A stretch of 64,000 nucleotides of DNA, from positions 2,166,068-2,230,067 of the forward strand of contig CM026427.1 in NCBI GenBank assembly GCA_014871385.1. Direction: 5' to 3'. Position 1 is the first letter of the stretch, and every line of letters starts with the position of its first letter. Shown one piece after another: positions 13,735 to 42,167 of the stretch. The notes under the pieces are model-generated. The model searched no databases. It saw only the letters and a program-made list of their open reading frames with translations, and was not told the DNA's origin. Position numbers and translations under genes: made by a program. The stretch is from Ceratodon purpureus (Eukaryota > Streptophyta > Bryopsida > Pseudoditrichales > Ditrichaceae).

Positions 13735-16700
13735 AAAATTCCTTTTAGAATGCAACAAAATGTGATTGAATATTTACTTTGGGATAAGTTTAAGAACTTG
13801 AGCCCCAAAAAATTCACTTGATGCTCCTTCACAAATAACAGCCGCACCCAATAGCATTAATCTCTTAATCTGTCATCCAATAAAAAAATAAATACTATAA
13901 TTTTGGAATTTTAATTTGATTTCTTCAATCGTGATTCATTTATGAATTTCGATCCATTCAAAACTATTATAATATTTTTCAAGATTGAATTAGATTGTGT
14001 GGATATTATGGTCAAATGCTTGAAGTATATGTGCATTTGCTCATTCTTATAATCTAATCAATTTACTTGGGCATCCCAAATAATGTAAGAAAATTTATTC
14101 ACTTGGGCATTACAAGTAATGTAAAAAACTTTATTCACTAGGGCATCCCAAGTAATGTAAGAAAATTTATTCACTAGGGCATCCCAAGTACACAAAGAAA
14201 ATGTAAACATATACTTATATGATTCTAAACACCATATTATAAATAAAAAATCATTGTATGTAAATTCCTTACAAAATGTAAATTTTCTTCAATTGTTATC
14301 AAATTTTAAATTTCGATCTATTCAAATCTATAATAATATTTTTCAAGATTGAGTTAGATTGTGCGGATATTATGGTTAAATGCTTGAAGTATATGTGCAT
14401 TTGCTTATTGTTATAATATAATCAATTCACTTGGGCATCCCAAGTAATGTAACAAAATTTTATTTATGTGGGCATTATTAGTAATGTAAGAAAATTTATT
14501 CACTTGGGCATCCCAAGTGATGTAAAAAAATGTAAACATATACTTATATGATTAGAAACACCATATTAAAAAAGCAATTTACTAAACATAAATTCCTTTC
14601 GGAATATAAATTATCTTCAACCCTGATCAAATTTCAAATTTTGAACCATTCAAAACTATTATAATATTTTTAAGATTGAATTAGATTGTGCGGATATTAT
14701 TTTCAAATGCTTGAAGTATATGTGCATTTGTTGGTTGTTATAATCTAATCAATTCACTTGGGCATCCCAAGTAATGTAAGAAAATTTATTCACTTGGGCA
14801 TCCCAAGTAATGAAAGAAAATGTAACCATATACTTATATGATTCTAAACACCATATTATAAATAAAAAATCATTATACGTAAATTCCTTTTAGAATGTAA
14901 AGTTTCTTCAATCGATATCAAATTTTAAATTTCGATCCATTCAAAACTATCATAATATTTTTCAAGATTGAATTGGATTGTGCGGATATTATGGTCAAAT
15001 GCTTGAAGTATATGTGCATTTGCTCGTTGTTATAATATAATCAATTCACTTGGGCATCCAAAAGAATGTAAGAAATTTAATATACTTGGACATCCCAAGT
15101 AATGAAAGAAAATTTATTCACTTGGGCATCCCAAGTAATGTAACAAAATTTTATTTATGTGGGCATTATTAGTAATGTAAGAAAATTTATTCACGTGGGC
15201 ATCCCAAGTGATGTAAAAAAATGTAAACATATACTTATATGATTAAAAACACCATATTTAAAAAAAAATTCATTAAATGTAAATCTCTTTTAGAATGTAA
15301 AATTTCTTGAATCGTGATCAAATTTTAAATTTCGATCCAATCAAAACTATCATAATATTTTTCAAGATTGAAGGAGATTGTGCGGGTATAATGGTCAAAT
15401 GCTTGAAGTATAAATGCATTTGCTGATTGTTATAATATAATCAATTCACTAGGGCATCCCAAGTAATGAAAGAAAATGTAAACATATACTTATATGATTC
15501 TAAAGACCATATTATAAATAAAAAATCATTGTATGTAAATTCCTTACAGAATGTAAATTTTCTTCAATTGTTATCAAATTTTAAATTTCGATCTATTCAA
15601 ATCTATAATAATATTTTTCAAGATTGAGTTAGATTGTGCGGATATTATGGTTAAATGCTTGAAGTATATGTGCATTTGCTTATTGTTATAATATAATCAA
15701 TTCACTTGGGCATCCCAAGTAATGTAACAAAATTTTATTTATGTGGGCATTATTAGTAATGTAAGAAAATTTATGCACTTGGGCATCCCAAGTGATGTAA
15801 AAAAATGTAAACATATACTTATATGATTAAAAACACCATATTATAAAAGCAATTTACTAAACATAAATTCCTTTCGGAATATAAATTATCTTCAACCCTG
15901 ATCAAATTTCAAATTTCGATCCATTCAAAACTATTATAATATTTTTAAGATTGAATTAGATTGTGCGGATATTATTTTCAAATGCTTGAAGTATATGTGC
16001 ATTTGTTGGTTGTTATAATCTAATCAATTCACTTGGGCATCCCAAGTAATGTAAGAAAATTTATTCACTTGGGCATCCCAAGTAATGAAAGAAAATGTAA
16101 CCATATACTTATATGATTCTAAACACCATATTATAAATAAAAAATCATTATACGTAAATTCCTTTTAGAATGTAAAGTTTCTTCAATCGATATCAAATTT
16201 TAAATTTCGATCCATTCAAAACTATCATAATATTTTTCAAGATTGAATTGGATTGTGCGGATATTATGGTCAAATGCTTGAAGTATATGTGCATTTGCTC
16301 GTTGTTATAATATAATCAATTCACTTGGGCATCCAAAAGAATGTAAGAAATTTAATATACTTGGACATCCCAAGTAATGAAAGAAAATTTATTCACTTGG
16401 GCATCCCAAGTGATGTAAAAAAATGTAAACATATACTTATATGATTAAAAACACCATATTAAAAAAAAAAATCATCATTTGTAAATCTCTTTTAGAATGT
16501 AAATTTCCTTCAATCGTGATGAAATTTTAAATTTCGATCCAATCAAAACTATAATAATATTTTTCAAGATTGAATGAGATTGTGCAAATATTATGGTCAA
16601 ATGCTTGAAGTATATGTGCATTTGCTGGTTGTTATAATATAATCAATTCACTTGGGCATCCCAAGTAATGTAAGAAAATTTATTCACTTGGGCATTACAA

Positions 16701-17035
16701 GTAATGAAAGAAATTATAAACATATACTTATATGTTTATTAACACCATATTATAAAAAAAATTCATTACATATAAATTCTTTTTAGAATGCAAGAAAATG
16801 TGATCTTATATTTACTTTGGGATAATTTTGAGGGAGTTGAGCTCCAAGAGTTCCTTTTGATGCTCCTTCACAAATAGCAGCCGCATCCAATAGCATTAAT
16901 CTCTTAATCTGTCATCCAATAATAAAATAAAAACTATAATTCTGGAATTTTAAGTTATTTTCTTCAATCGTGATTAATTTTTTAATTTCGATCCATTCAA
17001 AACTATAATAGTATTTTTCAAGATTGAATTAGATT
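13735..17035. repeat. Satellite-like array of about ten diverged ~260-450-bp monomers
   Basis: Each monomer contains GCTTGAAGTATATGTGCATT, then TATAATCAATTCACTTGGGC, one or more hairpin units ACTTGGGCATCCCAAGT, AACATATACTTATATGATT and AATATTTTTCAAGATTGA. The GTGCATTTG landmark recurs near 14028, 14390, 14718, 15007, 15410, 15667, 15991, 16285, 16613 and 17068. A higher-order repeat of about 1277 bp is visible: 14252 onward matches 15529 onward nearly base for base. A roughly 240-bp segment (TGCTCCTTCACAAATA...) occurs at both edges, near 13820 and 16857. No coding capacity. Confidence 0.8.
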
Positions 17036-17754
17036 GTGAGGACATTATGGTCAAATGCTTAAAATATATGTGCATTTGTTGGTTGTTATAATATAATCAA
17101 TTCATTGAATCTATAAAAATGTCAATAATGTATAATAAATTACGTCATTTTCAATTATTGGAGGATTGACAAGTTGCCACGTGCTAAACAAAATAAAGAG
17201 TAGAAATGTAATGATTCCTCCAATATTCAATAAAGTATGAATGTACACTCTAATTGTTGATAAGAGCACACTAATAGCCAAAGTTGTATAAACCTATAAT
17301 GAAAATGTAGATTGAATGCTATGTTGACACGAACAAAAATTCTAGAGTTTAGACTCCTTTTAAATATAATTAAAAACACATATTCGACATCAAGGACATT
17401 TAGGGTTAAGACTCCTTTTAAAAACTAATTCAAAACACATATGGTAAGTGAGTTTAAACACATGGAGGTAAAAGTGATTATATTGTCAAAGAGTAAAAAT
17501 GATTTCACTTTATTTTTTTTCTAGAAATTAAAATTAATATTTAAATTTAGAAATCCTAAAAGCTAAAATTCTAATCAAATTATAAGTATTTTACTTCTAT
17601 TTCTATACTACTAAAAAGGTAAAAAAGATTATGAGAGACTTGAGTAAAAGGTATTTCATTTTATTTTAATTTAAAAAGTTAACTCTATTATTTATACTTA
17701 GAACTTCTAAAAAAGAATGTGTATTACCACCTAATAAAATGGTAGGTATTTACT
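17036..17754. other. AT-rich spacer between the two tandem arrays
   Basis: No gene or clear element is seen. It separates the ~300-bp satellite from the 30-bp minisatellite. Confidence 0.5.
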
Positions 17755-18795
17755 TGAGTTGCTTGGGCATCCCAAGTAATCACTTGGGGTGCTTGGGCAT
17801 CCCAAGTAATCACTTGGGGTGCTTGGAACATCCCAAGTAATCACTTGGGGTGCTTGGGCATCCCAAGTAATCACTTGGGGTGCTTAGGCATCCCAAGTAA
17901 TCACTTGAGGTGCTTGGGCATCCCAAGTAATCACTTGGGGTGCTTGGAACATCCCAAGTAATCACTTGGGGTGCTTGGGCATCCCAAGTAATCACTTGGG
18001 GTGCTTAGGCATCCCAAGTAATCACTTGCGGTGCTTGGGCATCCCAAGTAATTACTTGGGGTGCTTGGGCATCCCAAGTAATCACTAGGGGTGCTTAGGC
18101 ATCCCAAGTAATCACTTGGGGTGCTTGGAACATCCCAAGTAATCACTTGGGGTGCTTGGAACATCCCAAGTAATCACTTGGGATGCTTGGGCTCCCCAAG
18201 TAATCACTTGGGGTGCTTGGGCTTCCCAAGTAATCACTTGGGGTGCTTGGGCATCCCAAGTACTCACTTGGGGTGCTTGGAACATCCCAAGTAATCACTT
18301 GGGGTGCTTGGGCATCCCAAGTAATCACTTGGGGTGCTTGGGCATCCCAAGTAATCACTTGGGGTGCTTGGGCATCCCAAGTAATCACTTGGGGTGCTTG
18401 GGCATCCCAAGTAATCACTTGGGGTGCTTGGGCATCCCAAGTAATCACTTGGGGTGCTTGGGCTTCCCAAGTAATCACTTGGGGTGCTTGGGCATCCCAA
18501 GTACTCACTTGGGGTGCTTGGAACATCCCAAGTAATCACTTGGGGTGCTTGGGCATCCCAAGTAATCACTTGGGGTGCTTGGGCATCCCAAGTAATCACT
18601 TGGGGTGCTTGGGCATCCCAAGTAATCACTTGGGGTGCTTAGGCATACCATGTAATCACTTGGGGTGCTTGGGCATCCCAAGTAATCACTTGGGGTGCTT
18701 GGGCATCCCAAGTAATCACTTGGGGTGCTTGGAACATCCCAAGTAAGTACTTGGGGTGCTAGGGCATCATAAGTAAGCACTTGGGGTGCTTGGAA
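17755..18795. repeat. 30/31-bp minisatellite with double dyad (about 34 units)
   Basis: The unit is TAATCACTTGGGGTGCTTGG followed by GCATCCCAAG (30 bp). A 31-bp variant has GGAACATCCC in place of GGGCATCCC. Each unit has two overlapping dyads: CTTGGG-CAT-CCCAAG, and CCCAAGT-AATC-ACTTGGG across the unit junction. Variant units show higher-order structure: the block GGCTTCCC...GTACTCAC...GGAACATCCC occurs at about 18222-18290 and again 241 bp later (eight units). The array is GC-rich against AT-rich flanks. Long ORFs on both strands arise only because 30 is a multiple of three. Confidence 0.95.
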
Positions 18796-19480
18796 AATTA
18801 TATACAAAGTCATAAATAATCAATATTGAATATAAGTAATTTAAAGAAAAAAACCGTTCGTTGGGATATATGAGTTTAAAGAGGAATGCAGGAAAGGTAC
18901 TTGAATGCATCATTTTCCATACGCAGGGGACCCTAAGCTGTTAAATTCAAGAAGTAGATTATAGACCCTTGTCTCTAGGGCAGTTGAAGAGCATGACGGC
19001 ATTGGGGGACACTTATCAGAGGGGGCACCATGTGTGCACCGATTTCCCAATATATAGTATCACAATTCACCATTTATGAATGTAACAAATTTAAAAAACA
19101 TCCTAATTTGGATGATTGTTCTTTAAGGATTAAAATGTAATGGATACAACATTGTGCTAAATTTGGAGGTTCTTTTGTGTAATAAGATATTCTTTATGTA
19201 TTTAGTTCTTGTCACAAAACAATCATATTTTGAGCATTATATATATATATATATATATAAAATTTAGGTATCATACTTTTATATTTGTGGAGTATTTTTA
19301 ATTTTATTTAATTTCCTCTCAAGTAATAATACATTTTCATTAGCAGAGATGATAGAAGGTAGCTCATTAAATATCGAGTTCTGTAAACTTTGGCTTATGA
19401 ATTTAAGATCGACTACAATATTTTGTATTCTATATTATTCTTGAGATGATGTCTCAATTTAATGCCTCTCTGAAACTGGT
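18796..19480. other. Intergenic DNA with an (AT)n microsatellite
   Basis: No gene is recognised. An (AT)n run lies at about 19235-19259. Confidence 0.5.
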
Positions 19481-20837: not shown

Positions 20838-20925
20838 CAAGTTACAAACTCGAGTTTGTAAGTTGCAGTGTAGGAACTTGAGTTCATGAGTTGCAGTTCA
20901 CTAACTTGAGTTTGTAAGTTGTAGG
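20838..20925. repeat. Three palindromic iterons upstream of the ParB-like gene
   Basis: The core TTACAAACTCGAGTTTGTAA, a perfect 20-bp palindrome, lies at 20842-20861 within the longer near-palindrome 20838-20865. Two diverged copies follow, around 20875-20896 (AACTTGAGTTCATGAGTT) and 20902-20925 (AACTTGAGTTTGTAAGTT). The same motif iterates in the leader of the DUF7869-type gene. Confidence 0.7.
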
Positions 20926-22927
20926 TTAAAAAGCCCGTCAGTGTGGCCTAAGGGGTGAACATTTCGACCAGAAGTTCGTAAATGTATAATGTAGATACTT
21001 TTCGTTGCTAAAAGTGACCATCCACTGAATGAATGTCACATGTTTTTTCCTGCTGGTTGGAATCACAGGAATGGCAAGCAAAAAATTCCTACAGCAGAGA
21101 TTTCACTTCTCGCCATATCTATCTCAATTGGATTTATCAGACCTTGAAGAGAGCCTGAGATCGGAAGTAAGTCCTGGAGAGATTGCCCTGACACTAAATG
21201 GTAGTAAGGGGTCATCATGGTCCATCACCCCTGACATTACTCGTGACAGGAACAATGTGCTCTTCACACTTGCTGTTGGGAAATTGAAGTCTGAAAACGT
21301 CTTCCACTGGAAAGCATTCCGTTCTATAAGTGTTTTGGGTCTTGCCACTGTAACTGGAGTTATAATTGTTACGCTTTACTCAAACGAGTCAATTGCGAAG
21401 TTGATCATTCGACTTGAAGAGAACCATCCCTTCAATGTTGAGTATTTTACTAGCGAGGCTAATGGGTTAGTGGAGCCATGGAAGACAACTATCTTATCAG
21501 TGTTTGGACCACTTCAAGGAATGCAGCAAGAATCAGTTGATCTTGCATTGAGTTGGTCCCGTTTAACAAAGAGAGTTGACCGGCGTGCAGCAGTGTTGTC
21601 AAAGACAAGTACCAGTTTGAACTCGGAGGGTACAGTTTCAGAGCAGGAGTCAATGGGGAGGGAGAAAGAAGATCCCAAGGAAGGAAGGTATGTAAAAAGA
21701 GCAGAGGAAAAAAGAGCAAGAATAACACCAAAGGCTGTCGTCCCGAGTGCACCAACTGGAGATGTTGGACAGAGCTTGCGAGTGCCTAGTGGCAGTGCAC
21801 AAGGACGAGAATCGTCTTTGCCCGTGACCCCTCTTGCAGCAGTAGGAGCAGGACGATCCTCATTGACTGGGAAGACTGCACGCCCAAAGCAGATGGTGTC
21901 GAAGACGAAGTATCTTAAGGGGTCTTGCTCTACAGCCGCCCCAACTCTACTAACTCAACCAGGTCTCGAAAATGACGATGCACCAGGGGAAGCGCCTGCG
22001 CCGGCATCAGATCACTTGACTGAGTCGGTGAGAAATATTTCTCATGACATTCTTAACGCGGGCAGTAGTGGCGAAGCAGGAATTGCGATCATGGCAGGTC
22101 CTTTATCTGGTCGGGTAGATGATATACTGAACATCATGCCCCGAGAGCTTGCCCCAAAGCCTCCAAAGGTACGCTTGATGTCGGAGAAGGTGTGGTCCTC
22201 TAACCCGGTCACTAACCCTGTGGATGACTCCGTTGTTATTCCGGAAGATTTGGAGACTGAGGTAGATGTAGTTGTTACCTCCAAGAAAGGAGAGGATCGT
22301 GACGCGGACTTGCGAAAGCGTTCTCTTCTCAATGAGAAGTTTACTCGCGAGTCAGATTATATGTATGTATTTGGCCGTGACCAGATCTTTGAGCTTGCAT
22401 TGGGACATATGGAGCCAAGCGACCATAGGTTGGGTAGAATCTACCGCCACTATGAAAAGGCAGGAGCTGAGGATATTAAGCGCAATCTCATTTTGGCGAA
22501 TTATGTGAAGCCTGTGCTCACAGTGATGCCGAACCTCGACCACCGTCCAAAAGATTGGTCGGAGTGTGTAAATGCTGGGAAATTTCAAATAATTAACGGA
22601 CAACATACTTGGCATGCGGCAATTGCATGCCTAAATGACCCTGTTCTCCGCTCTCAGAATCCCCGAATTGAAGATATGAAACTCTGGGACGTGCAAGTAG
22701 TCTGGACAGATAAGGCCAGCCACTTGCACGCTCTATCATTCAAGTGTAATGAGGGTCACAACGAGACCAAGCACTTGACGTCTCTTCTGCGAGCTATCCT
22801 TCATTGCCGTGTACTTTGGGAAAGCGCTGGGAAGCCACCCCTAGTGAGAAAAAATGCATCCACGCGACGGAAAAAGGACCCACAAGCCATTGAAGCAGCC
22901 GACCCTAAACTGAAGCAAAGATATGAG

Positions 22928-24922
22928 GTAACATGATTTGACCCGGAATTTTCTATTTTCTCTTATATCAGAATGAGAATGCTTGTACATAGTCAACTTT
23001 TTGCAGCCTCAAACTGAATTGATAAGTCATTTAGAGGTGCGGTAATAAATGTAACTTAATATGCAGAGCTATCCATATGCACAATTTCTTACAAATTTAA
23101 AGCCAGAAGTCTACCATACTGTATGTCCTCTTATTGGTTACTAACTCAAGTTTGTAAGTTGCATCCAACCTTGTGTCTGCAACTCATGCTTTTGATCCTG
23201 AACGAGTGATTAGTATTTGATTTGGATTCGTACTAACAAATAAAAATTGTACCATGAAAAGCTTTTCCATTCTGATCCATGAATTAGTATTCTTTGACCA
23301 GACCATTGTAGGCATAGTACAATGCAGTACCCAGTGTAGTTGCTTCGGCGGTAAACAAAGCTCCGTAGTCAGTGATCAATGATCCATGGTGTACTGGTCG
23401 TCTGGGTTTTCTAGCTTATTAAGGACTATTCATAAAACAATGGAATTATTTATCAGGCTATTCTGTGTTTGAATATGTAAGAACACTTCCTTGCAGATCA
23501 AATTGTAGGGTCAGATGTTTCGTAGTTTTAATACTTACGCTTGAGTGATTTCAAATCACAATACAATAATGTGCTCATGAGTGTAAGTTACACTAGTACT
23601 TTCGCCCTTTGGGTTGCTCAGATTCATAACAAGCAACTTCTTCTGATGTTCCTTACACTTTACAAAGCGTATGATTAGTAGTTCATATCGTGTCAAGTCT
23701 CATACAATTCCTCCTTTTGATGTCTGTTACTCTATTTGAGACTTTGGTGGTACAATGAACATAAAGCAGGCAAGGTGACATACTCAAGTGCAATCAGAGT
23801 CAATTGCTCAGAGAAACTTGTACTACCTTGGGCTTTGCGCTCATTGTGTCGACGTCTTTTTATTTCTTGCCAAATTAGTAGCTCAGAACGATGTGGAATC
23901 TGAGAAGTCGGCCGAAGTGATTAATCAACCTTCTGAACGGAAGAGACATATAGATCAGAATCTGTACGTTCGTCTAAATTGAATTCGAAAAGCTAACGTG
24001 TCTTAGAGGTCTTACTTCCCAGTCTGGCAGGTTTTTCGTTGAAGAGTAGTATCATGGAAATACCAAACGCAGAGTTGCCGCCGATAGGTATTGCTGTATG
24101 ATGGTGCTGAAGTTGATTCATGGGGGGTTTACTAGTGGTCGAACTGATATGTGCCACCTGGGTTTGAAAGTCTCATGTCTAAATACTCTTTGATTCTTAA
24201 ATCTGATCGTAGTATTTCTTGTTTCGACATAAAAAACTCCGTAACAGATGTAAGCCTATGTTGCAAAGATTTTCCGATGTTAGTTGGTGAAAATACTTTC
24301 TACTGGGCACGTTGGTAGTGAGTGTAGGTGGTTCAAATTTCGTGGGACGTGCGGAGGCCTTACCTGACTGCCTATTGCGAAACACTGTTTTGAAATTGTT
24401 CACGCACAGGGTTCCGATCCATGACTACGACCTCAACCGAGAATGTCTAGGGAGTCTGTTGAAGCCATTTACGAGTAGTTTTCCTGTCGAGGCCAATGCA
24501 GGTACATCCTTGAAAGACGGCAAATCGTTATGGAGAGAGATTGACAGAGAGCTCGACGTTAATCACACTCCAGAGTTGAGCTGTTGCTGTGACCTTGCGG
24601 CACTGATAGAGCTTTTTGTTCCGTTCGTTTCAGATCGCTGTGGTCGTCAATCAATATGACCTCTCCACTCTACGTCTGCTTGTCTCAATCGTAGTTAATG
24701 AACAATGGGTATAGACACTTGTGAACAGCAATAACCCCCGCGGAATTTTGAGGGATCTGGCCTCCGTCTTCGAGTTGCAAACGACTTTCTAGCACATTGT
24801 GCAATTTGTTTTACGAGTGGGAATTCTAAATGGCGTTGTTATGGGTGTTTGTGTATACTAACTTGAATTTGTATCCGTTGCTTGGGACCTTAGACTGATT
24901 GAGCATCATTCCGTGTTTGCAG
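22928..24922 (+). other. Intron 1 of the ParB-like gene (possibly with unrecognised exons)
   Basis: It is bounded by GAG|GTAACA and TTTGCAG|GCG and both exons are in phase 0. It carries one more palindrome at 23136-23161. An open segment bounded by AG and GT (about 24410-24500) and a 115-codon ORF (24312-24659) leave room for an extra exon. Neither resembles a known domain. Confidence 0.5.
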
Positions 24923-26553
24923 GCGTTTCGTATGCGAGCTTGCCAGTCCCTTAGCGCGACTGTGAAACAGGAGCAACCTGATAAGCCTATCCGGATTAAT
25001 TGGGAGCAGAGAGGGGAACGACAAATTATCATGTCTCCGGACGATATTTGGGAGAAATGGGAATCTGTTTTCACAAAGTACGAGGCAGGGGACTTGATCG
25101 ATTTGGACACAGGAGAGGAGATGAGAAAGTCCCCAAACGCTGCTGAGCTGATGAGTCTGGGCAACATAACTGCGACATTACTTCGAGGCCTAGCCGCTGT
25201 TAGTATGCAAAACATTGGACAGGCTGCAGATCATATCCTAAGTAATCCTCCACGCATCTTTCTTGGGAAATCACCTAAGAAGTGGCACCGTGCACTTTCC
25301 CTTGATAAATGGTGCGAGCGAAGAAAGTGGAAGGATGTAATCGTCAGAGCTATTGGCGACCGCATCGCGTACATCAAGAAATCAGAGGAGAATATGTTCT
25401 TCACAGATAATAAGGAGATAAATTTGCCGATGTGGAAGAGGTGGAAACAAGAGAAGTTTTTCTCCTCGACAATTATGCAAGCAATTTACTTCTCTGAGGG
25501 AGCTGAAAACTACATCACCAATTGCATGTCTGCTAATCGGACAAGTCCAGAGTATCCTCCCTACCATTGTCGCATTGCTATTGATCAAGCTCTCACCAAT
25601 GGTCTCAGGGCGGACGAAGTTGCAGAAGGAAATTAGTCTGTTTTTGTCCCTTGGAAACCAAGCGAGGGAAGGTTTCAACTCCAAACAGGTGCATTTGGTG
25701 TGAGCGGAAAGGTGGTTCCAGAAGTGCAGAAGAAGTTTAATCCAAAGAAGCTCAGGGCAGGCATCATTGATCTACGTCATTTCCCTCTTGTCTCGAAGGA
25801 TGCCGAGGAAACCACAAGCTGGAACAAAATTATTCAGCTCATGCAGGTGCGGGCCATGAAGTTTGGGTTTGCAACAACAAAAGCGTGGATGATCATTGCC
25901 AGGAAGGAGAGGCGGAATGTGGTGAACATTTTGCGAAGTCACTTCTTCCCAAACCATCGTTGCAAGCATGTCCAATACACATCTGCTAGTGGCGAACCCA
26001 CTCCCAAAGCAAAGTCCAAGGACATTGAGATAACATACCTCGAAACTCCAACAACGTTTAACAACTACACAACTGGATATCTTTCCGATGATTATGAGGC
26101 GGAGGAAGTCCTTGGAAAACAATTCAAACATCAAGAGTTTTACCGGGCGGAGCACAAAGACACAGTCTTCCTTGACGAACTTCGAATGGAGACCTATATC
26201 CGATTCATTCGATATCATTCAACTGAGAACACAAACATCTTCCTGGGATTTGCTGGATCTAAAGCCCTTAGGGCATGCCGAGTAAGTCAAATACAACCCT
26301 CTACTTACATTTGAGTGCGGTTTTTCCAATGCATTTGCTGATTTTAATTTTTAAACCATTGGTTGACAGAAAGCAAATCTACCGTCGTGAATGGAATGTC
26401 TAAAGGGAACATTGCAAATTTGACATGTTTAGTTAAATGAACTTAATTATGTACACCGTCAATAAAGAGAAACAGAGCCTCCTTACTTGTTAGAATGCTA
26501 AGCTATCGTCGTGAATGGAATGTCTGAATTAAATATTGAAAACTTGACATCTT

Positions 26554-26580
26554 CAGTTACAAACTCGAGTTTGTAAACTG
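26554..26580. repeat. Palindromic iteron in intron 2 of the ParB-like gene
   Basis: CAGTTACAAACTCGAGTTTG followed by TAAACTG contains the perfect 20-bp core TTACAAACTCGAGTTTGTAA. It sits about 110 bp upstream of the intron's 3' splice site. The copy-2 counterpart is 36913-36939. Confidence 0.75.
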
Positions 26581-29500
26581 ACCCTACTTTGGGAAACAGT
26601 GTTTGCCCACTAGTTAGAATCATAGCCCACGTCGTGATTGGAGTTTTTGAATTTCGTTCCAAATTTGACTTACGCCTCATTACAGATGATGAAGCGAAAC
26701 AGCATTTCCTTTGAGTTCTTGCGCGTCGGCACAGAGAAGCTGCTCTTCAAGGCAGTATCAGAGGCTCCGTCTAACTGGAGAACGTATTACTTACCCAATC
26801 CTAAGGATATGAAAGGCGACAAGGTGATTACCTACGAACCTGGACTCGGCATTCAGGTTTTGGTGAACTATCGCTTCAATTGGGACATCACAATCGGAGG
26901 ATTTTATGACGACGATGATGACGAGACTGTTGACGTGCGACAATCACAGTCTAGTTGCGGTGCTGGCCCATCAAGACAAGAATCGCCCCAGGCTGAGTCA
27001 AACCCTTCAGGCTTTGCACGTGACGTTGTAGATGATACTACAAACTTCAGCGTTGAGTTGCCTTCTCCCGGGATTCACGATGATGATATCGTGAACATCG
27101 ATTCCGCCTCGGAGGATAATGATATTATGGGATCAGGTTGCTCCGATGATGCCCTCTCGGTTGGTTCCTTGATGAATGACTTATTCAAGGACGTTGTTGA
27201 CTCTCCAGTCATCGGTCTCTCAGGTCAGTCCGTGAGGCCTGATACCGCAAGTCTGACCTACCCTGCACCGGAGAGGTGGATGTTTCAGAAGGTGAGGAAT
27301 CAGGTTTTCAGTTGAAGACCAAGTCAGCGTTACCATCGGTTGCTGAGAAAGACAGGGACGAAGTACTGCCAACTCTTCAGGCTGAAAGAGCCCGCCGCTT
27401 GGAGCAGAAAAACCGTAACATTCGAATTCAGAATGCGCAGTCGTTAAATATTGACGACGTTTCTCCATCTGCACCTGAAACTGCCGGGACCTCTCACTTG
27501 ACAGTTTCTACTGATGATAGTGCTCAAGGCGAGGATGGTGACGACTGTTATGACACTGAACTTGTTGGGTTCCGTCCTGGTGATTCTTCTTGCGCTGGAG
27601 TCGAGGCAGCGACTCAGAGAGTGGGAGAGAAAATCCGCGCCACACGAGACAGGGAACTGGCATCACACGCAACAAAGAAGGCTGCGACAAGAAAGGAATT
27701 AGAGAGGAGTCTGCTTGCCATGGAGAAGGAGATAGCTGTAAAAGAAAAGCAAAAGGTAGTAACCGAGAATGAAAAGAAAATGGCGGCATTGGAAGTGAAA
27801 AAGAACGCTCCGTTGGGGGAGAAAGGAAAGAGTTCTCGAGATCAGAAGAAGGCTGACAAAGACGCAGTACAGCAGGGTGCCCGAGCTTCTAAAGAGAATG
27901 CTAAGAGGGTGACGATGAAGAAGGCGGCGGAACAGCCGAAGGTAGCTGCCCAAGAGAATGCGGAGGAAATTCGCCTCTCTAAGAAGAGACCAGGAGTGGA
28001 GGAGGTTCAATTTTCTAGAAAGAAACCCACAGTGGAGCAGGTTGAACTCTCTAATAAGAGAGATGCAGCAAAGCATGCCTGTCCAATGGAGGTGGAAGAC
28101 TCTGTGCGAGTGGCAGTGGAAAAGGAAGCTCTCCGTGTGGCAGTAGAGGACGAAGCTCCGCGGGTAGAAGAGAAGCAAGCGCAACGCGTACCAGAGGAGG
28201 GAGATTTGCACGAGGCACCTTTGCTTGATACAGCAGAACAGGTTACGCGTTTGCCGGAGGAAACGCCTTTGCGCCAAATTAACGAGAATGAGAAGGTGAT
28301 AGACACGACTGTGACAAACGTGATGGGAGACCATGACGGGCAAGCCACTAAGGGCTTATGTAACTCCGAGGCTTCAGAACTGGATCAGCGGGTGGTACTA
28401 GAGGTCACATTGCCGCCTGCAGTGGAGCAGGGAGCCCTCTCTAAGAAGAGACCATTGGGACCTGGCTTGGTAGAAATAGAATCCCCTATCATAGAGGTTG
28501 GCACACCAGCTCCCCGGAATTCAGTTCCTGTGGATGAAAATTTGGAAATTGCAAGAGCAACGGTCCGAGAGGCAGAAGAGGCTTGGAAACGTCAAAAAGA
28601 ATTTATTGCAAAGGAGAAGCACGAAAAAGACTTGAAGTTAGTGGAGGACAATGAGCTTTTTGAGAAGAAGTTCTCGCGGCCAGCCAAAGACCGAATTGTC
28701 CTGCGAGACTCCTCTGATGATGATGACGATGATATGGTCCGTGGTCGATTACTGAAAACATACAATTGTTTTGTCCCACCAGCGGGTGCGGGAGCGGTTA
28801 CTAGGAATGGTGCAGCCCATGTCACTGTAATTCCTAGACCGACCAAGCCCGAGCCAGAGGAGTATACGGGTGTCAATCCAACCTCTTCTTTACCAACCTC
28901 CTCAGGTCCACGAGGCATGGATCCCTCCCCTTCCTTGGAGGCGCCTCCTTTAGAACACGAGATGTTGAGAGATGTAAAAACTGAGTTTCTAGAGGACCAG
29001 TGGTTGAGGAAGAGAAGAGCAGAGTGGGATGTGGAGTTGACGGATGCTGTAAACAGGAAGTTTAGCGCTGCCAAGGGCGATTTGCTGAAGTCAATTTATG
29101 CAGATATCGAGGCGGGCCGAGTGCAGCTTCCAGTACCTCTGCCATCTTCACGACCTGGTGGTCGATCTGAGATTCTGTCTGGTGTGTCAAATGCTGCATC
29201 TCCAATTGACGTTCCAGTTGTTACTCCATCTCTAGTTAACGTAACGGTTGTTACCGCAGCTCCAACTCCACAGTCATGCCCAGCACCTAACGCACCCCCG
29301 GTGAGTTTCATCTCTAGACGTCCTGTCGAGATGGTCCTATGTACCCCAGATCCCCTGCTACTTTCTCAGTTTGATAGTAGACACGAGACATAGGTGTACT
29401 CCTTCTCTGTCAGCTTGTTGCTTATACCTGTTTCTTTTAAACAGGTACCTCCCAGGATAGAGGGTTCTATCGCACCCAACGAGGTGGATTTTGCAGTCAA

Positions 29501-30774
29501 CGTTTCTGCCCCAGCGTCAGATCAGTGACCTAGTTTTGGGCGGGAATTTGATATTTTCCTTAGATAGATATCTTTAGGTCTCAATAGTCTAGTTGCCTAT
29601 TTTGATAAGATAAAGATCAATAAATTTTTCCCTATTATAATTCCCGTCCTCAGTTTTGATAATTTTGGTGTAGGAGTTCATGTTTTTACTAGCATCATTG
29701 ATCCTTTTACAATTTCTCTCCTTTATAGAAGGACAATTCACGTTAAGTATGTGTCTCACTATGATATTTTTTTGGGCAGCTGACCCATATAGAGATTTAT
29801 ACAAGGATGTAGGTAATGGAAATATTCAAATATCCGTCTCCCCTCTAGGAACCGACAATGGACATTGAACTTAAAAATACTCCACAATAGAATATTATTC
29901 ATATACACAATTGTAAATTTCATTACAGGCATAATTTGAGGTACCAATATTTTTTTGAAGAAAAGGACTCTTACCTTCTATTGCTCTTTCTTTTCATCCA
30001 GGTTCGAGAAGTTCCAGATGTTGTACCAGAATTCATTCATTTAACTAGGACGCAGGCATGCATGGTGAATAAAACCCTATCCAGAGTAGATCACGCTTTG
30101 CATACCATGGTTCCAAGCTCTTCTGGTATACCGGAAACCAAGTTCTCCTTGCAAAGAACAGAAGGGTTAGTACAGGTGAGAAATATGAACTATATTTAAT
30201 AATTGTGTTATGTCCTTTTCACTTGGGTATACAATCTTCTTCTAAATCCAACACTGATTAGAACTAAATAAGATTTGTGATACTTGGCTTTGCCATAAAT
30301 GTTGAATTCGAGAATTTGTGATTCTTACACTCAGCTTTAAAACTCGTTTTCGACACTAAATATAATATGAAAATCTTCACAATTATTTCTAATATTCAAG
30401 ATTAGAGAGACCTTGACTATGGATAATCATTCTATAACGTCCGAACATTGTTTGTTTGAAGATCCACTTGACCCAAAATTTGAAGAACTCAGAGGATGTC
30501 CACACAATTTCCCAAAGTGACTCATCTCCTTCTCCTGTGCACGCTGACTTCTTTGGGGACGTTGATTCGGGAAATATAGGTGAGCTCTTAACACAACTTT
30601 ATCTTCTTCTGTTATAGTCTCCTTCAGCAATGGCATGAACTGATCCCTTTACTTGTATTTTACTCCAGGAAAGCATCACTTTCAAACGGATCTTTAAGAT
30701 GACAAAGTAGGTAAATTAGCATTATTGAATTTACGTGCGTGAGCTTCAAATTCTTTAGCCATGAAATATATGAC

Positions 30775-30811
30775 TGACACTATATTATATAGTGTCATGC
30801 ACTATAGTGCA
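30775..30811. repeat. Two abutting perfect palindromes
   Basis: TGACACTATA-TTA-TATAGTGTCA (30775-30797) is followed with no gap by TGCACTATAGTGCA (30798-30811). Both contain CACTATA/TATAGTG, as does the 14-bp palindrome at 1752-1765. They lie about 80 bp past the last candidate exon of the ParB-like gene and are repeated in copy 2 at 41873-41909. Confidence 0.7.
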
Positions 30812-31069
30812 TTTAGTCGATTTAATTATAGGATTAGTCATTGGAATAGAAAATTTAAGAATAAGGTTAGAGAAATATTGATATGAGCCATCTGATACAG
30901 TCAGTTGAAGAGCATGGATAGCGAAATACCTCCATTTGAACTTTTGAAGGGATTTACCTTCACTCTATATATAAAATCAATCTTATTTAATTTCACTTTC
31001 AACACTGCAGCACCAATCAGTTCTACATACAATCTCTTGTAAGATATGACTTTGCAGTACATTAATGGT

Positions 31070-31730
31070 CACGGGGGGGTGACTTCCCGTTTTTTAATAA
31101 CCTACGTACGGCAGAACATAGGGTACATTTAAATAATTATGGGTAAAATTTATAAGAAATGTATATATAAATTAGCGGACGTTAAAAGTGATATGTCCTT
31201 TATAAGTAATATAGGGAACCGGAAAATATGGTCTCTTAAATTTTAGGTAGATATAATTTAGGGGTAAAAGAATGGGATCCTAAAAAAAATAATGTAATTT
31301 TTTTTAATTTTTAAAAAAAAAAAAAATTAGGCATATATTTATGTTCATACTTGATAAATGCACATACTTTGCCTACAATCTCTTCAAAACTTCTTCAACC
31401 CTAATGTCTTGTTATTCATGCATGTATTTGCCATGTATTTGTATTCATGCATTGTTTTAACTTAACCTTTTTTCCATAAGGTATTTGTTACTCACTTGTA
31501 CTCTCATTATTTTTTAAGTTAGTTTTTTTTCTTACAAAGAAAATAGCCTCTAATATATTCCCGTGACGTACATATTATAAGTAATGATAGGTATGATAAT
31601 ATAGGCAATTTTTTTGCTTTATGTAATAATTGGGGTCTTTAAAATGCTTTTAAGGAGGTAAATAGGCCCCCAAAAAATACCTTACCGCCGCACGTGGGTC
31701 CCCAAATATACACGAAGTGACCCCCCCGTG
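31070..31730. mobile_element. hAT-type MITE (661 bp), copy 1
   Basis: The left end CACGGGGGGGTGACTTC and the inverted right end GAAGTGACCCCCCCGTG form terminal inverted repeats. Perfect 8-bp direct repeats TTAATGGT flank the unit (31062-31069 and 31731-31738). An 8-bp target duplication is the hAT hallmark. There is no coding capacity and the interior is AT-rich. Confidence 0.85.
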
Positions 31731-31738
31731 TTAATGGT

Positions 31739-33103
31739 TTTGGCAAATCACACATTAAAATGATATTACAGCCCATTTCTTCCGGCTTCTAAAGAAATAA
31801 CATGAGCTCGAACAAGATATATTGTTCACTAATGCTACTAACATATTCATTTTCATCTAGATGCATCTTGACATTATTTTCCCTCGACCTTTTAGCAATA
31901 TCAAACTACTTCAATAACCATTTGCTTAAAAAGCAATTAAAAAAACTACTTCGATACCCTTAATAAGCAATTTAAACAGCAAAAAAACAACAATAGAAAC
32001 AACCAATAAATGTTGTGCACTAAAATGATGTACATGATGTTACTTACTTGTGCACCAGTACTGAGACTTAAAAAAAAGGCATAGCATTATGAAAAAAATT
32101 TCATAAGGAATACAAGTTCATGTTTCTTTTGACACTCATTCTATTTTTTATGATAAACCATTTTCTGTTGGAATAAAAATCCATGCGGTCAAAACAAAGA
32201 TCTATCTCTATTCATGAAGTAAAAAATAAAGAAAAAATAAAATAATAAAATAATAAAAATAATAAAAAAATCTCTGTCTTTTTATATGGTCGAAAAAAGT
32301 TTTCCAAAACTTTGGCGTCTTATAAATTGAAAATCTTCCACGATATTAGAATTTGAAATTTTTTTCTTAAATCTCCTAGTCAATCATGTTAGTTACTTGC
32401 ATTAAAATCCCAAAGATAGTTGAATGGTGTATCAAAATTTTGGAACTGATCTAGTAGTACGAAAAGCTGCTTTAGGCACAATAAATATTTTTACCAATCT
32501 CTATTGCACAAAATCGTTGTCCCACCCAATCTTGACTATTGAATTATTTCTTCTTCTCAGCCATGCAAGTTTTTGTAATTTAATTTTCTATTCTTGTGGC
32601 TTCCGTATAATGTTGTGTGATTCCCTATGAATCGACTTGAGTCTAATTCTAACAATGCACTTGAAGTAATATGAAAGTAAAAAATTACATATACATACTC
32701 ATTTAGATAAATTTGAATTATTACACAATCAACATGATTTAAATAATGACTTGTGTAGTTTTGTAAGAGAATTACGTAACCATGGCATTATAAAGGAATT
32801 TTATCCATAAACAAAATAAAATTAATTTAATACCCAAGCCCTTGTCCATCACCCAAGCCCCAAGCTGAACCCCTTTCTCATAATTCCGAAGCCCAGTGGC
32901 CAACTCTCATGCCTCATACACATTGACTTCCCGCACACCCCATTCCCCATGTCCCATGCCATCCATACTCCATACACATGCTCCATGTTTCATCTGGCGA
33001 CCAAGATCTGTAACCGTTAGGTTTTGTAAAGCCTCCGGAGCACTTAGCCACCCCCACGCATTGCAAATTGCAAAGGCTCCCAAGCACTTAGACGCCGCCA
33101 AGT
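31739..33103. other. AT-rich spacer ending in a C-rich, hypothetical leader-like stretch
   Basis: No gene is recognised. 32830-33100 is noticeably C-rich (CCCAAGCCC..., CCATGCC words) and ends at the tandem-duplication junction. Its copy-2 equivalent is 42837-44207. Confidence 0.4.
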
Positions 33104-36100
33104 TGTAATGAGGGTCACAACGAGACCAAGCACTTGACGTCTCTTCTGCGAGCTATCCTTCATTGCCGTGTACTTTGGGAAAGCGCTGGGAAGCCACCCC
33201 TAGTGAGAAAAAATGCATCCACGCGACGGAAAAAGGACCCACAAGCCATTGAAGCAGCCGACCCTAAACTGAAGCAAAGATATGAGGTAACATGATTTGA
33301 CCCGGAATTTTCTATTTTCTCTTATATCAGAATGAGAATGCTTGTACATAGTCAACTTTTTGCAGCCTCAAACTGAATTGATAAGTCATTTAGAGGTGCG
33401 GTAATAAATGTAACTTAATATGCAGAGCTATCCATATGCACAATTTCTTACAAATTTAAAGCCAGAAGTCTACCATACTGTATGTCCTCTTATTGGTTAC
33501 TAACTCAAGTTTGTAAGTTGCATCCAACCTTGTGTCTGCAACTCATGCTTTTGATCCTGAACGAGTGATTAGTATTTGATTTGGATTCGTACTAACAAAT
33601 AAAAATTGTACCATGAAAAGCTTTTCCATTCTGATCCATGAATTAGTATTCTTTGACCAGACCATTGTAGGCATAGTACAATGCAGTACCCAGTGTAGTT
33701 GCTTCGGCGGTAAACAAAGCTCCGTAGTCAGTGATCAATGATCCATGGTGTACTGGTCGTCTGGGTTTTCTAGCTTATTAAGGACTATTCATAAAACAAT
33801 GGAATTATTTATCAGGCTATTCTGTGTTTGAATATGTAAGAACACTTCCTTGCAGATCAAATTGTAGGGTCAGATGTTTCGTAGTTTTAATACTTACGCT
33901 TGAGTGATTTCAAATCACAATACAATAATGTGCTCATGAGTGTAAGTTACACTAGTACTTTCGCCCTTTGGGTTGCTCAGATTCATAACAAGCAACTTCT
34001 TCTGATGTTCCTTACACTTTACAAAGCGTATGATTAGTAGTTCATATCGTGTCAAGTCTCATACAATTCCTCCTTTTGATGTCTGTTACTCTATTTGAGA
34101 CTTTGGTGGTACAATGAACATAAAGCAGGCAAGGTGACATACTCAAGTGCAATCAGAGTCAATTGCTCAGAGAAACTTGTACTACCTTGGGCTTTGCGCT
34201 CATTGTGTCGACGTCTTTTTATTTCTTGCCAAATTAGTAGCTCAGAACGATGTGGAATCTGAGAAGTCGGCCGAAGTGATTAATCAACCTTCTGAACGGA
34301 AGAGACATATAGATCAGAATCTGTACGTTCGTCTAAATTGAATTCGAAAAGCTAACGTGTCTTAGAGGTCTTACTTCCCAGTCTGGCAGGTTTTTCGTTG
34401 AAGAGTAGTATCATGGAAATACCAAACGCAGAGTTGCCGCCGATAGGTATTGCTGTATGATGGTGCTGAAGTTGATTCATGGGGGGTTTACTAGTGGTCG
34501 AACTGATATGTGCCACCTGGGTTTGAAAGTCTCATGTCTAAATACTCTTTGATTCTTAAATCTGATCGTAGTATTTCTTGTTTCGACATAAAAAACTCCG
34601 TAACAGATGTAAGCCTATGTTGCAAAGATTTTCCGATGTTAGTTGGTGAAAATACTTTCTACTGGGCACGTTGGTAGTGAGTGTAGGTGGTTCAAATTTC
34701 GTGGGACGTGCGGAGGCCTTACCTGACTGCCTATTGCGAAACACTGTTTTGAAATTGTTCACGCACAGGGTTCCGATCCATGACTACGACCTCAACCGAG
34801 AATGTCTAGGGAGTCTGTTGAAGCCATTTACGAGTAGTTTTCCTGTCGAGGCCAATGCAGGTACATCCTTGAAAGACGGCAAATCGTTATGGAGAGAGAT
34901 TGACAGAGAGCTCGACGTTAATCACACTCCAGAGTTGAGCTGTTGCTGTGACCTTGCGGCACTGATAGAGCTTTTTGTTCCATTCGTTTCAGATCGCTGT
35001 GGTCGTCAATCAATATGACCTCTCCACTCTACGTCTGCTTGTCTCAATCGTAGTTAATGAACAATGGGTATAGACACTTGTGAACAGCAATAACCCCCGC
35101 GGAATTTTGAGGGATCTGGCCTCCGTCTTCGAGTTGCAAACGACTTTCTAGCACATTGTGCAATTTGTTTTACGAGTGGGAATTCTAAATGGCGTTGTTA
35201 TGGGTGTTTGTGTATACTAACTTGAATTTGTATCCGTTGCTTGGGACCTTAGACTGATTGAGCATCATTCCGTGTTTGCAGGCGTTTCGTATGCGAGCTT
35301 GCCAGTCCCTTAGCGCGACTGTGAAACAGGAGCAACCTGATAAGCCTATCCGGATTAATTGGGAGCAGAGAGGGGAACGACAAATTATCATGTCTCCGGA
35401 CGATATTTGGGAGAAATGGGAATCTGTTTTCACAAAGTACGAGGCAGGGGACTTGATCGATTTGGACACAGGAGAGGAGATGAGAAAGTCCCCAAACGCT
35501 GCTGAGCTGATGAGTCTGGGCAACATAACTGCGACATTACTTCGAGGCCTAGCCGCTGTTAGTATGCAAAACATTGGACAGGCTGCAGATCATATCCTAA
35601 GTAATCCTCCACGCATCTTTCTTGGGAAATCACCTAAGAAGTGGCACCGTGCACTTTCCCTTGATAAATGGTGCGAGCGAAGAAAGTGGAAGGATGTAAT
35701 CGTCAGAGCTATTGGCGACCGCATCGCGTACATCAAGAAATCAGAGGAGAATATGTTCTTCACAGATAATAAGGAGATAAATTTGCCGATGTGGAAGAGG
35801 TGGAAACAAGAGAAGTTTTTCTCCTCGACAATTATGCAAGCAATTTACTTCTCTGAGGGAGCTGAAAACTACATCACCAATTGCATGTCTGCTAATCGGA
35901 CAAGTCCAGAGTATCCTCCCTACCATTGTCGCATTGCTATTGATCAAGCTCTCACCAATGGTCTCAGGGCGGACGAAGTTGCAGAAGGAAATTAGTCTGT
36001 TTTTGTCCCTTGGAAACCAAGCGAGGGAAGGTTTCAACTCCAAACAGGTGCATTTGGTGTGAGCGGAAAGGTGGTTCCAGAAGTGCAGAAGAAGTTTAAT

Positions 36101-39100
36101 CCAAAGAAGCTCAGGGCAGGCATCATTGATCTACGTCATTTCCCTCTTGTCTCGAAGGATGCCGAGGAAACCACAAGCTGGAACAAAATTATTCAGCTCA
36201 TGCAGGTGCGGGCCATGAAGTTTGGGTTTGCAACAACAAAAGCGTGGATGATCATTGCCAGGAAGGAGAGGCGGAATGTGGTGAACATTTTGCGAAGTCA
36301 CTTCTTCCCAAACCATCGTTGCAAGCATGTCCAATACACATCTGCTAGTGGCGAACCCACTCCCAAAGCAAAGTCCAAGGACATTGAGATAACATACCTC
36401 GAAACTCCAACAACGTTTAACAACTACACAACTGGATATCTTTCCGATGATTATGAGGCGGAGGAAGTCCTTGGAAAACAATTCAAACATCAAGAGTTTT
36501 ACCGGGCGGAGCACAAAGACACAGTCTTCCTTGACGAACTTCGAATGGAGACCTATATCCGATTCATTCGATATCATTCAACTGAGAACACAAACATCTT
36601 CCTGGGATTTGCTGGATCTAAAGCCCTTAGGGCATGCCGAGTAAGTCAAATACAACCCTCTACTTACATTTGAGTGCGGTTTTTCCAATGCATTTGCTGA
36701 TTTTAATTTTTAAACCATTGGTTGACAGAAAGCAAATCTACCGTCGTGAATGGAATGTCTAAAGGGAACATTGCAAATTTGACATGTTTAGTTAAATGAA
36801 CTTAATTATGTACACCGTCAATAAAGAGAAACAGAGCCTCCTTACTTGTTAGAATGCTAAGCTATCGTCGTGAATGGAATGTCTGAATTAAATATTGAAA
36901 ACTTGACATCTTCAGTTACAAACTCGAGTTTGTAAACTGACCCTACTTTGGGAAACAGTGTTTGCCCACTAGTTAGAATCATAGCCCACGTCGTGATTGG
37001 AGTTTTTGAATTTCGTTCCAAATTTGACTTACGCCTCATTACAGATGATGAAGCGAAACAGCATTTCCTTTGAGTTCTTGCGCGTCGGCACAGAGAAGCT
37101 GCTCTTCAAGGCAGTATCAGAGGCTCCGTCTAACTGGAGAACGTATTACTTACCCAATCCTAAGGATATGAAAGGCGACAAGGTGATTACCTACGAACCT
37201 GGACTCGGCATTCAGGTTTTGGTGAACTATCGCTTCAATTGGGACATCACAATCGGAGGATTTTATGACGACGATGATGACGAGACTGTTGACGTGCGAC
37301 AATCACAGTCTAGTTGCGGTGCTGGCCCATCAAGACAAGAATCGCCCCAGGCTGAGTCAAACCCTTCAGGCTTTGCACGTGACGTTGTAGATGATACTAC
37401 AAACTTCAGCGTTGAGTTGCCTTCTCCCGGGATTCACGATGATGATATCGTGAACATCGATTCCGCCTCGGAGGATAATGATATTATGGGATCAGGTTGC
37501 TCCGATGATGCCCTCTCGGTTGGTTCCTTGATGAATGACTTATTCAAGGACGTTGTTGACTCTCCAGTCATCGGTCTCTCAGGTCAGTCCGTGAGGCCTG
37601 ATACCGCAAGTCTGGTGGGGGGAAGCACAATAAAGTGGACCAAAAAAGTGCTTATCTTTTCACCAATTTCAGCCCCTTCCGTAAACACTAGGGAAAGTGG
37701 GATCTACGCTATGTCGATGCAAGATTAAGTTTGGAATACCGAAAATAGACTTGATGGACTTCAACGTCCCAAAGTGGCGGGAGAAGACATGGAGTTTAAC
37801 ATGGAAAACGGAGATGTCGAACTCGGACAAAGTGAACTGACTCGTTTCGAAAAGTGAACAGAACGGTTTAGGGTTTTGTCCGATATCACTTTTAATTTCG
37901 CTAGGCACCCCGCTTTTGAAATAGGGTTATATAAATGTACCTGTTTCAGTACTTTGGAACCTCGGATGGACTAAAAGTGTCGTTCCGACGTTTTCAGGAC
38001 AGTGTTTTCGACGAAACTTTTGGGGCGTTTTTTTTCACCGAACATTGTTTTTCAAATTGAAAAAAACATCCTCTAAAGACAATAGATGGCTCCAAATGAA
38101 GAAATTAAGACTTTGGAAAAGTTCATTTTCATGAATTAGAACTAGTGGTCAAATTAAGTTTCAATTGAAGATGTTCTTTTTATGAAGATGTATAAAAGAT
38201 ACCTTATGACACCCTAAAAAGTGACTAAAATGCTCAAAAACTACACCAAAATGCTCAAAATCAGCTTTGAGCCTTAAAAAACAGCACACTTCATATTCAC
38301 TTGTTGGTGGTCACATTTTGCACTTTGTGGTCCACTTTATTGTGCTCTCCCCCTGGTACCCTGCACCGGAGAGGTGGATGTTTCAGAAGGTGAGGAATCA
38401 GGTTTTCAGTTGAAGACCAAGTCAGCGTTACCATCGGTTGCTGAGAAAGACAGGGACGAAGTACTGCCAACTCTTCAGGCTGAAAGAGCCCGCCGCTTGG
38501 AGCAGAAAAACCGTAACATTCGAATTCAGAATGCGCAGTCGTTAAATATTGACGACGTTTCTCCATCTGCACCTGAAACTGCCGGGACCTCTCACTTGAC
38601 AGTTTCTACTGATGATAGTGCTCAAGGCGAGGATGGTGACGACTGTTATGACACTGAACTTGTTGGGTTCCGTCCTGGTGATTCTTCTTGCGCTGGAGTC
38701 GAGGCAGCGACTCAGAGAGTGGGAGAGAAAATCCGCGCCACACGAGACAGGGAACTGGCATCACACGCAACAAAGAAGGCTGCGACAAGAAAGGAATTAG
38801 AGAGGAGTCTGCTTGCCATGGAGAAGGAGATAGCTGTAAAAGAAAAGCAAAAGGTAGTAACCGAGAATGAAAAGAAAATGGCGGCATTGGAAGTGAAAAA
38901 GAACGCTCCGTTGGGGGAGAAAGGAAAGAGTTCTCGAGATCAGAAGAAGGCTGACAAAGACGCAGTACAGCAGGGTGCCCGAGCTTCTAAAGAGAATGCT
39001 AAGAGGGTGACGATGAAGAAGGCGGCGGAACAGCCGAAGGTAGCTGCCCAAGAGAATGCGGAGGAAATTCGCCTCTCTAAGAAGAGACCAGGAGTGGAGG

Positions 39101-41795: not shown

Positions 41796-42167
41796 GATGA
41801 CAAAGTAGGTAAATTAGCATTATTGAATTTACGTGCGTGAGCTTCAAATTCTTTAGCCATGAAATATATGACTGACACTATATTATATAGTGTCATGCAC
41901 TATAGTGCATTTAGTCGATTTAATTATAGGATTAGTCATTGGAATAGAAAATTTAAGAATAAGGTTAGAGAAATATTGATATGAGCCATCTGATACAGTC
42001 AGTTGAAGAGCATGGATAGCGAAATACCTCCATTTGAACTTTTGAAGGGATTTACCTTCACTCTATATATAAAATCAATCTTATTTAATTTCACTTTCAA
42101 CACTGCAGCACCAATCAGTTCTACATACAATCTCTTGTAAGATATGACTTTGCAGTACATTAATGGT

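Follow-up and report, generated by a model that had tools for sequence, protein, structure and literature searches.

Bacterial partition by ParB-parS pairs a protein bearing a GxH-type motif with palindromic sites near the gene that encodes it, and among DNA transposons the Sola superfamily makes target duplications of 4 bp. Sola1-1_Ec32, a 21.5-kb transposon of Ectocarpus, carries an accessory gene that joins a ParB-like part to an N4C/N6A methyltransferase; self-binding and self-modification have been proposed for it, and green and red algal cases have been cited (PMC12477816). Sola1 has also been tabulated for Physcomitrella (PMC9033089). The motifs of VANC21 in VANDAL elements occur within introns and upstream, frequently as part of repeats; the targets of VANC6 have other motifs (PMC5735166). 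The window, a 64,000-nucleotide stretch of the moss Ceratodon purpureus (C7:2166068-2230067 of an assembly of 362 Mb in 151 contigs, of which C6 accounts for 110.5 Mb), contains a giant DNA transposon with a spliced gene that a preliminary description had read as a ParB/DGQHR-like domain joined to a dead methyltransferase-like fold. With moderate confidence, its product is interpreted as a regulator encoded by the transposon, built on a ParB and pseudo-methyltransferase scaffold and binding DNA in a sequence-specific way; it would act in the manner of VANC. The sequences document the transposon structure, a divergent two-gene design, selection, the loss of catalytic motifs and family-specific palindromes at the genes.

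The ParB-like gene runs on the strand opposite a DUF7869 gene, which we infer to be the transposase; no paper on DUF7869 was found in the open-access literature. A genomic search with the first half of exon 2 gave 107 matches (the best 150 of 306 candidates were scored), and a search for DUF7869 gave 106 (the best 63 of 1493 candidates). When further fragments of the same place were omitted, 104 exon-2 places and 63 DUF7869 places remained. Among the matches listed, a DUF7869 place lies no more than 40 kb from 46 of the 104 exon-2 places, and the two are divergent in 45 of these 46. When the count is restricted to contigs whose length is known, 44 of 99 exon-2 places have a partner at most 40 kb away; the null distribution has a mean of 1.6 and a maximum of 7 in 1000. 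The 58 unpaired places carry little weight, since the DUF7869 places are the best 63 of 1493 candidates. Within a bounded element, the gene is encoded opposite the putative transposase of a giant DNA transposon, as is the algal ParB-methyltransferase accessory gene.

Both genes are accompanied by a perfect 20-bp palindrome, TTACRAACTNNAGTTYGTAA, which has 151 sites in the 362 Mb and none in the control. The window contains 12 matches with up to three mismatches, all upstream of or in the introns of the two genes or in a duplicate of part of the ParB-like gene, against none in three shuffles (Table 1). Perfect sites number 19, 27 and 12 in the related copies g, h and i, respectively, many of them in arrays directly upstream of the gene. 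Of the 151 sites, 103 distinct ones were listed, and 91 of these lie within 10 kb of a ParB-like gene of the family to which the window gene belongs (the near family) or within 8 kb of a near-family DUF7869 place, an area that makes up 0.24% of the genome. The introns of a distant gene, L052, carry a different palindrome, TTAAGRTGACMMCCTTAA, for which 352/353 matches were found genome-wide with one mismatch allowed, against 6/5 in the control. The 100 listed TTAAGRTGACMMCCTTAA sites are all perfect and 83 are on C6; for 58 of them a distant-family place is found within 10 kb, where the null distribution has a mean of 1.2 and a maximum of 6. None of the 100 is near a near-family exon-2 place, and none was found in 11 near-family sequences with up to two mismatches, while TTACRAACTNNAGTTYGTAA is absent from L052 and from a second distant gene, L053. 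As with the targets of VANC proteins, short family-specific motifs are thus found in non-coding parts of the element.

Table 1. Features of the window (positions counted from its first nucleotide) and other large copies of the transposon (contig positions).
Feature	Position	Strand	Remarks
Giant DNA transposon, 50,605 bp	42-50646		Inverted ends beginning AACGCCATATACATT (left) and AACACCATATACATT (right); CATT on either side
Target-site duplication, left	38-41		CATT
Target-site duplication, right	50647-50650		CATT
Left terminal inverted repeat, ~38 bp	42-79	+	34 bases equal those of the right end; one of the 4 outer bases differs
Right terminal inverted repeat, ~38 bp	50609-50646	-	
Transposase-type exon, PF25273 DUF7869	1822-3939	-	E 1.4e-43, 149 bits; many genomic copies
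Probable upstream exon of DUF7869 gene	4029-4976	-	Adjoining open frame; no Pfam match; putative assignment
Five palindromes, 5' side of DUF7869 gene	7412-7827 (7412, 7487, 7563, 7733, 7808)		TTACRAACTNNAGTTYGTAA, 0-3 mismatches
Three palindromes directly upstream of ParB-like gene	20842-20981		20842 perfect; 20898, 2 mismatches; 20962, 3 mismatches
Exon 1, ParB-like/pseudo-methyltransferase gene	21071-22927	+	Open frame; full-length or near-full-length matches elsewhere ~56-62% identical
ParB/DGQHR-like segment	22292-22927	+	GQH motif ~22592-22624; 31 invariant columns in 7 sequences
Palindrome, intron 1	23138-23157		1 mismatch
Exon 2	24923-26281	+	In-frame stop 25634-25636
Pseudo-methyltransferase segment	25694-26281	+	Motif-IV-like D-[LF]-R near 25769, motif-I-like FAGSK near 26249; from alignment and hhalign
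Palindrome, intron 2	26557-26576		Perfect
Exon 3, end of motif-I-like stretch and C-terminal part	26686-29393	+	Frame break near 27256
Second tandem copy of 22741-33106	33099-44204	+	Lacks most of exon 1; head to tail
Counterparts of intron 1 and intron 2 palindromes in the duplicate	33497, 36916		
Insertion of ~740 bp with inverted ends, second copy	37615-38356		3-base footprint at this site in copy 1
Large copy, 37.8 kb	C9 5473985-5511771		Exact 4-bp duplication CTTT
Large copy, 39.0 kb	C12 10824350-10863300		Exact 4-bp duplication TAGT
Large copy, 32.2 kb	C11 5115605-5147808		Exact 4-bp duplication CATG
Large copy, 13.6 kb	C4 5626237-5639864		Exact 4-bp duplication ATGA

The gene had been described as spliced, and this was borne out: canonical dinucleotides are present at donors and acceptors, and the exon-1 donor, exon-2 donor and exon-3 acceptor are preserved in all three other copies examined (e, h and j). 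Its proposed end at 30697 found no support in a downstream check that covered the pieces at about 29443-29527 and 29891-30196, and in ten other copies neither piece gave a match below E 0.5. The two tandem copies of the gene in the window are hardly alleles, given that moss gametophytes are haploid; two aligned parts are 99.96-99.97% identical, with three substitutions and one large indel. The 10.4-kb tandem duplication inside the transposon is recent and truncates exon 1 of the second gene copy, and at 27256-27258 the first copy has an apparent excision footprint opposite the insertion of about 740 bp in the second. Since both copies share the stop in exon 2, the first has the frame break and the second has lost most of exon 1, the window copies are broken. 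Intact frames without stops exist elsewhere in the genome. The ratio of nonsynonymous to synonymous change (dN/dS), a comparison among paralogues that the preliminary description had proposed, was calculated for 9 of 13 sequences (36 pairs per exon). For copies d, e, f and a against j it was 0.18-0.19 in exon 1 and 0.10-0.11 in exon 2 (d against j: 0.18 and 0.10), and these exons are under purifying selection. Synonymous change is saturated between groups (proportions of differing sites pS 0.81-0.94, pN 0.19-0.30), and in very close pairs dN/dS is scattered, up to 1.5, on few changes.

The GQH motif of the ParB-like segment is invariant in all seven aligned sequences, which represent three families, and the residues kept in all seven are G103, Q104, H105, A109, W132, V137 and W138. 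When the segment was aligned with 27 phage ParB_N proteins by hhalign, GQH fell on the ParB GH motif with a score of 14.5 (P 0.26). Several of 120 shuffles outscored the real alignment, reaching 26.7 without one outlier; this is a narrow phage ParB set, and failure against it is weak evidence. PF02195 has no match anywhere in the genome, and neither Pfam nor NCBIfam, the latter searched with the ParB-like part only, gave a credible model match for the segment. An NCBIfam match to wcaK was taken as chance (three of seven members; best E 0.0018; 17 bits where the cut-off is 727). Of the ParB/DndB-like segment in the preliminary description, the motif stands, and its identity comes down to that one motif in register. 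Twenty-five other ParB-like exon matches have a frame of 492 amino acids, near-equal scores and 28-29% identity over residues ~378-606 (for example C6:8988133 and C12:4530230); they are probably another recently expanded family.

For exon 2, 13 sequences were aligned, comprising the near family with L052 and L053 (identity to the window 24% and 27%, respectively); L008 was omitted for its stop and L006 was not used. Residues D280, R282, W319, E416, R418, M419, E420, Y422, F440 and K444 are invariant. By eye the order is that of a beta-class methyltransferase: a motif-IV-like D-[LF]-R is followed by a strand and a variable stretch, ELRME or EFRME stands where the KP motif would be, and then comes F-[AG]-x-x-K, which continues after splicing into a strand ending in an acidic residue. 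The earlier proposal that this motif-I-like stretch is formed by the splicing of exon 2 to exon 3 proved sound: it joins across intron 2, and its form is kept in relatives over three families. DPPY and DPFxGSG are kept in none of the 13 sequences, again in three families, and at its curated cut-off PF01555 is not among the families that the 13 members matched.

A comparison of profile hidden Markov models weakly supports the methyltransferase register. With hhalign, 21 beta-class enzymes (Escherichia coli YhdJ and IMG/VR relatives) aligned with the KP/motif-I part and the following strand, not with the motif-IV part, giving a region score of 28.3 (P 0.0033, probability 9.7%); the whole profile gave P 0.012, and the two distant sequences by themselves also recovered the motif-I register (score 19.9). 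The real score exceeded all of 120 column shuffles (maximum 24.3) and the reversed profile (14.7). In a further control, three of 150 shuffles scored 131-134 over 3-11 columns, which were read as numerical artefacts, and the others reached at most 17.5; two ParB shuffle sets (120 and 100) had one such outlier apiece. In cross controls, the moss ParB part scored 20.1 against the methyltransferase profile and the moss methyltransferase part 15.6 against the ParB profile. No credible match was found for exon 2 in PHROGs or among PDB sequences, nor for window exons 1 and 2 in PADLOC, and IMG/VR and GTDB yielded no confirmed relatives of exon 2. The methyltransferase-like region of the preliminary description therefore keeps its motif order and its loss of both motifs, and its identity as a methyltransferase is weak, with a profile match probability below one in ten. 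Another methyltransferase-like gene, L054 (385-861 and 1765-2154 of C12:14529600-14533600), matches PF01555 above the cut-off with 31.7 bits, and its motifs, IDQPF and DLNASTG, look degenerate too. At least 150 scored PF01555 matches are present in the genome, not shown to form one family.

The genes of each element family are marked by short palindromes, which are probably recognised by the protein. As an accessory gene of a giant DNA transposon family, divergent from a DUF7869 transposase-type gene, it would encode a ParB/DGQHR-like part that binds the palindrome particular to its own family, and a former methyltransferase part which, having no catalytic motifs, may serve as a DNA- or cofactor-binding scaffold. 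Located at the palindrome clusters that precede its own gene, lie in that gene's introns and flank the putative transposase gene on its 5' side, the protein would control both genes; the most plausible means is relief from host silencing, which VANC proteins provide for VANDAL elements. The VANC-type site pattern, taken together with the gene order and domains of the Ectocarpus type, makes a regulator that recognises its own element, with its enzyme part dead, the most likely role. Several observations weigh against it. The transposase or a host factor might be what binds the palindromes; among the genes and sites listed, a part of the full set, 12 of 103 near-family palindromes and 42 of 100 distant ones are away from known places; and 4 of 26 near-family ParB-gene places have no listed palindrome within 10 kb. 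L053, which lacks the near-family palindrome, has only one loose match to TTAAGRTGACMMCCTTAA. The homology to ParB is not significant, several shuffles scoring higher, and no family model in Pfam, PHROGs, PADLOC or NCBIfam credibly fits either part. Among the 12 outlying near-family sites are pairs about 14 kb apart (C8:15769740/15783654, C39:2614/16515, C51:5475/19453 and C54:6429/20322).

A more specific version of the self-recognising regulator, which we regard as rather unlikely, is a ParB-parS-like module turned self-recognition system: the protein would load at family-specific palindromes and perhaps spread from there along the element in the clamp-like manner of bacterial ParB, its dead and possibly S-adenosylmethionine-binding methyltransferase part would shield the element from silencing, and protein and palindrome would diversify together. 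It is about equally improbable that the protein is a transposition co-factor rather than a regulator of expression, binding the palindromes to assemble a transposase complex. There are two-protein transposition systems such as Spm, and the gene does travel divergently with the DUF7869 gene under purifying selection; however, all 12 window palindromes are by or in the two genes or the duplicate, and none is near the terminal repeats.

The likeness to ParB and methyltransferases could have arisen by chance in a lineage-specific DNA-binding protein of unrelated fold, a doubtful explanation with much the same standing as a co-factor. The want of a credible library match, the non-significant ParB comparison, the low methyltransferase probability and the cross control in which the moss ParB part reached 20.1 against 28.3 agree with it. 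Yet the motif order and register are right, the motif-I register is recovered from two distant sequences alone, and the gene lies opposite a transposase, as in the algal ParB-methyltransferase element. Less probable still is a divergent methyltransferase whose activity labels the transposon encoding it, a role suggested for the algal ParB-methyltransferases. The motif-IV-like Asp and most of the motif-I-like stretch are kept, and the related algal proteins are predicted N4C/N6A methyltransferases (PMC12477816), but DPPY and DPFxGSG are absent from all 13 sequences of three families and PF01555 is not among the families matched.

The gene sits wholly within the 50.6-kb transposon, whose ends were first detected as inverted repeats at 39-79 and 50609-50649 and were refined with the flanking sequence. 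Exact 4-bp duplications flank all five large copies with two simply paired ends, the window element among them. In a sixth, on C6, the left end is bordered by AAAA, the inner of two right ends by TTTA and the outer by AAAA, so that the outer end matches and the inner does not; two more left ends (L049 and L050) were left unpaired. The terminal-inverted-repeat pattern, with up to three mismatches, has 340 forward and 338 reverse matches genome-wide (control 0/0). The giant elements are about 32-75 kb in the copies measured. Copies a-f are mostly ~98-99% identical over long stretches on different chromosomes, and 94-98% identical in some parts and in the group g-h-i; this near-identity across chromosomes indicates that the family moved recently. 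A host gene caught in the duplication, outside any transposon, would account for the size, introns and tandem duplication, but is effectively dismissed by the bounded ends with target duplications, the ~98-99% identical copies on several chromosomes and the repeated DUF7869 pairing. Where the preliminary description had allowed a host or a transposon DNA-binding factor derived from a ParB-methyltransferase, the latter fits best in view of membership in the element, selection, motif loss in 13 of 13 sequences and the palindromes, and the host gene is set aside.

The C6 copy, at C6:18022606-18097636, is an apparent 75-kb composite transposon with the inner right end and two ParB-like genes 38 kb apart. 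Miniature elements of 139 bp have the same ends (for example C4:8872752-8872890 and C1:12221947-12222085), most with 4-bp duplications, and are presumably mobilised by the giant elements; the duplications are exact in five of seven miniature copies. Inside the window transposon, a frame of 418 amino acids (9754-11007, minus strand) has a RING-like cysteine pattern by eye. It gave no credible Pfam match, and tblastn was empty against the other copies, which mostly stop short of this part. Long tandem arrays at about 13976-18822 contain 30 exact copies of CTTGGGCATCCCAAG; this array (~14.4-18.7 kb) was rejected as a general binding site, with 30 copies in the window and none in ten other copies, of which 20-30 kb each were read. 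The right end at 50646 is some 400 bp from a protein-kinase frame (51040-52161, minus strand, PF07714).

The moss system bears on how giant DNA transposons persist under host silencing. A single genome suffices to read off both the proteins and their candidate targets, and the targets differ from family to family. Transposon-encoded self-recognition of the ParB type would be directly testable in mosses and may be a route to self-control or to escape from host silencing.

No report of a moss ParB-like/pseudo-methyltransferase transposon system was found in the open-access literature, a scope that leaves subscription papers mostly outside. The preliminary description had thought that a ParB-methyltransferase protein turned into a DNA-binding factor of host or transposon would be unusual; ParB-methyltransferase proteins have already been reported from algal transposons (PMC12477816). 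The moss elements resemble the Sola superfamily in their 4-bp target duplication, and it is a Sola1 element that bears the Ectocarpus gene, whereas the moss transposase matched DUF7869 only. Like the accessory gene of Sola1-1_Ec32, compared here by its description, the moss gene lies opposite the transposase of a giant DNA transposon and joins ParB-like and methyltransferase-like parts in one protein. It differs in the size of the elements (32-75 kb), the loss of both catalytic motifs, the lack of a credible library model and the family-specific palindromes, and it places accessory genes of this type, with their enzyme motifs lost, in a land plant. ParB-parS shares the GxH-type motif protein and the palindromic sites in the neighbourhood of the protein's gene; the moss protein, by contrast, has no known partition role, and its homology is statistically unsupported. 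VANC of VANDAL is likewise transposon-encoded, with short motifs in introns and upstream regions that are often repeated and differ between related families, although transposon and protein are different and the moss motif, a candidate binding site, is a 20-bp palindrome. With ParB-methyltransferase-type accessory genes already known in algae, what is new here is the clustering of a 20-bp palindrome at these genes and the different palindrome of the distant family.

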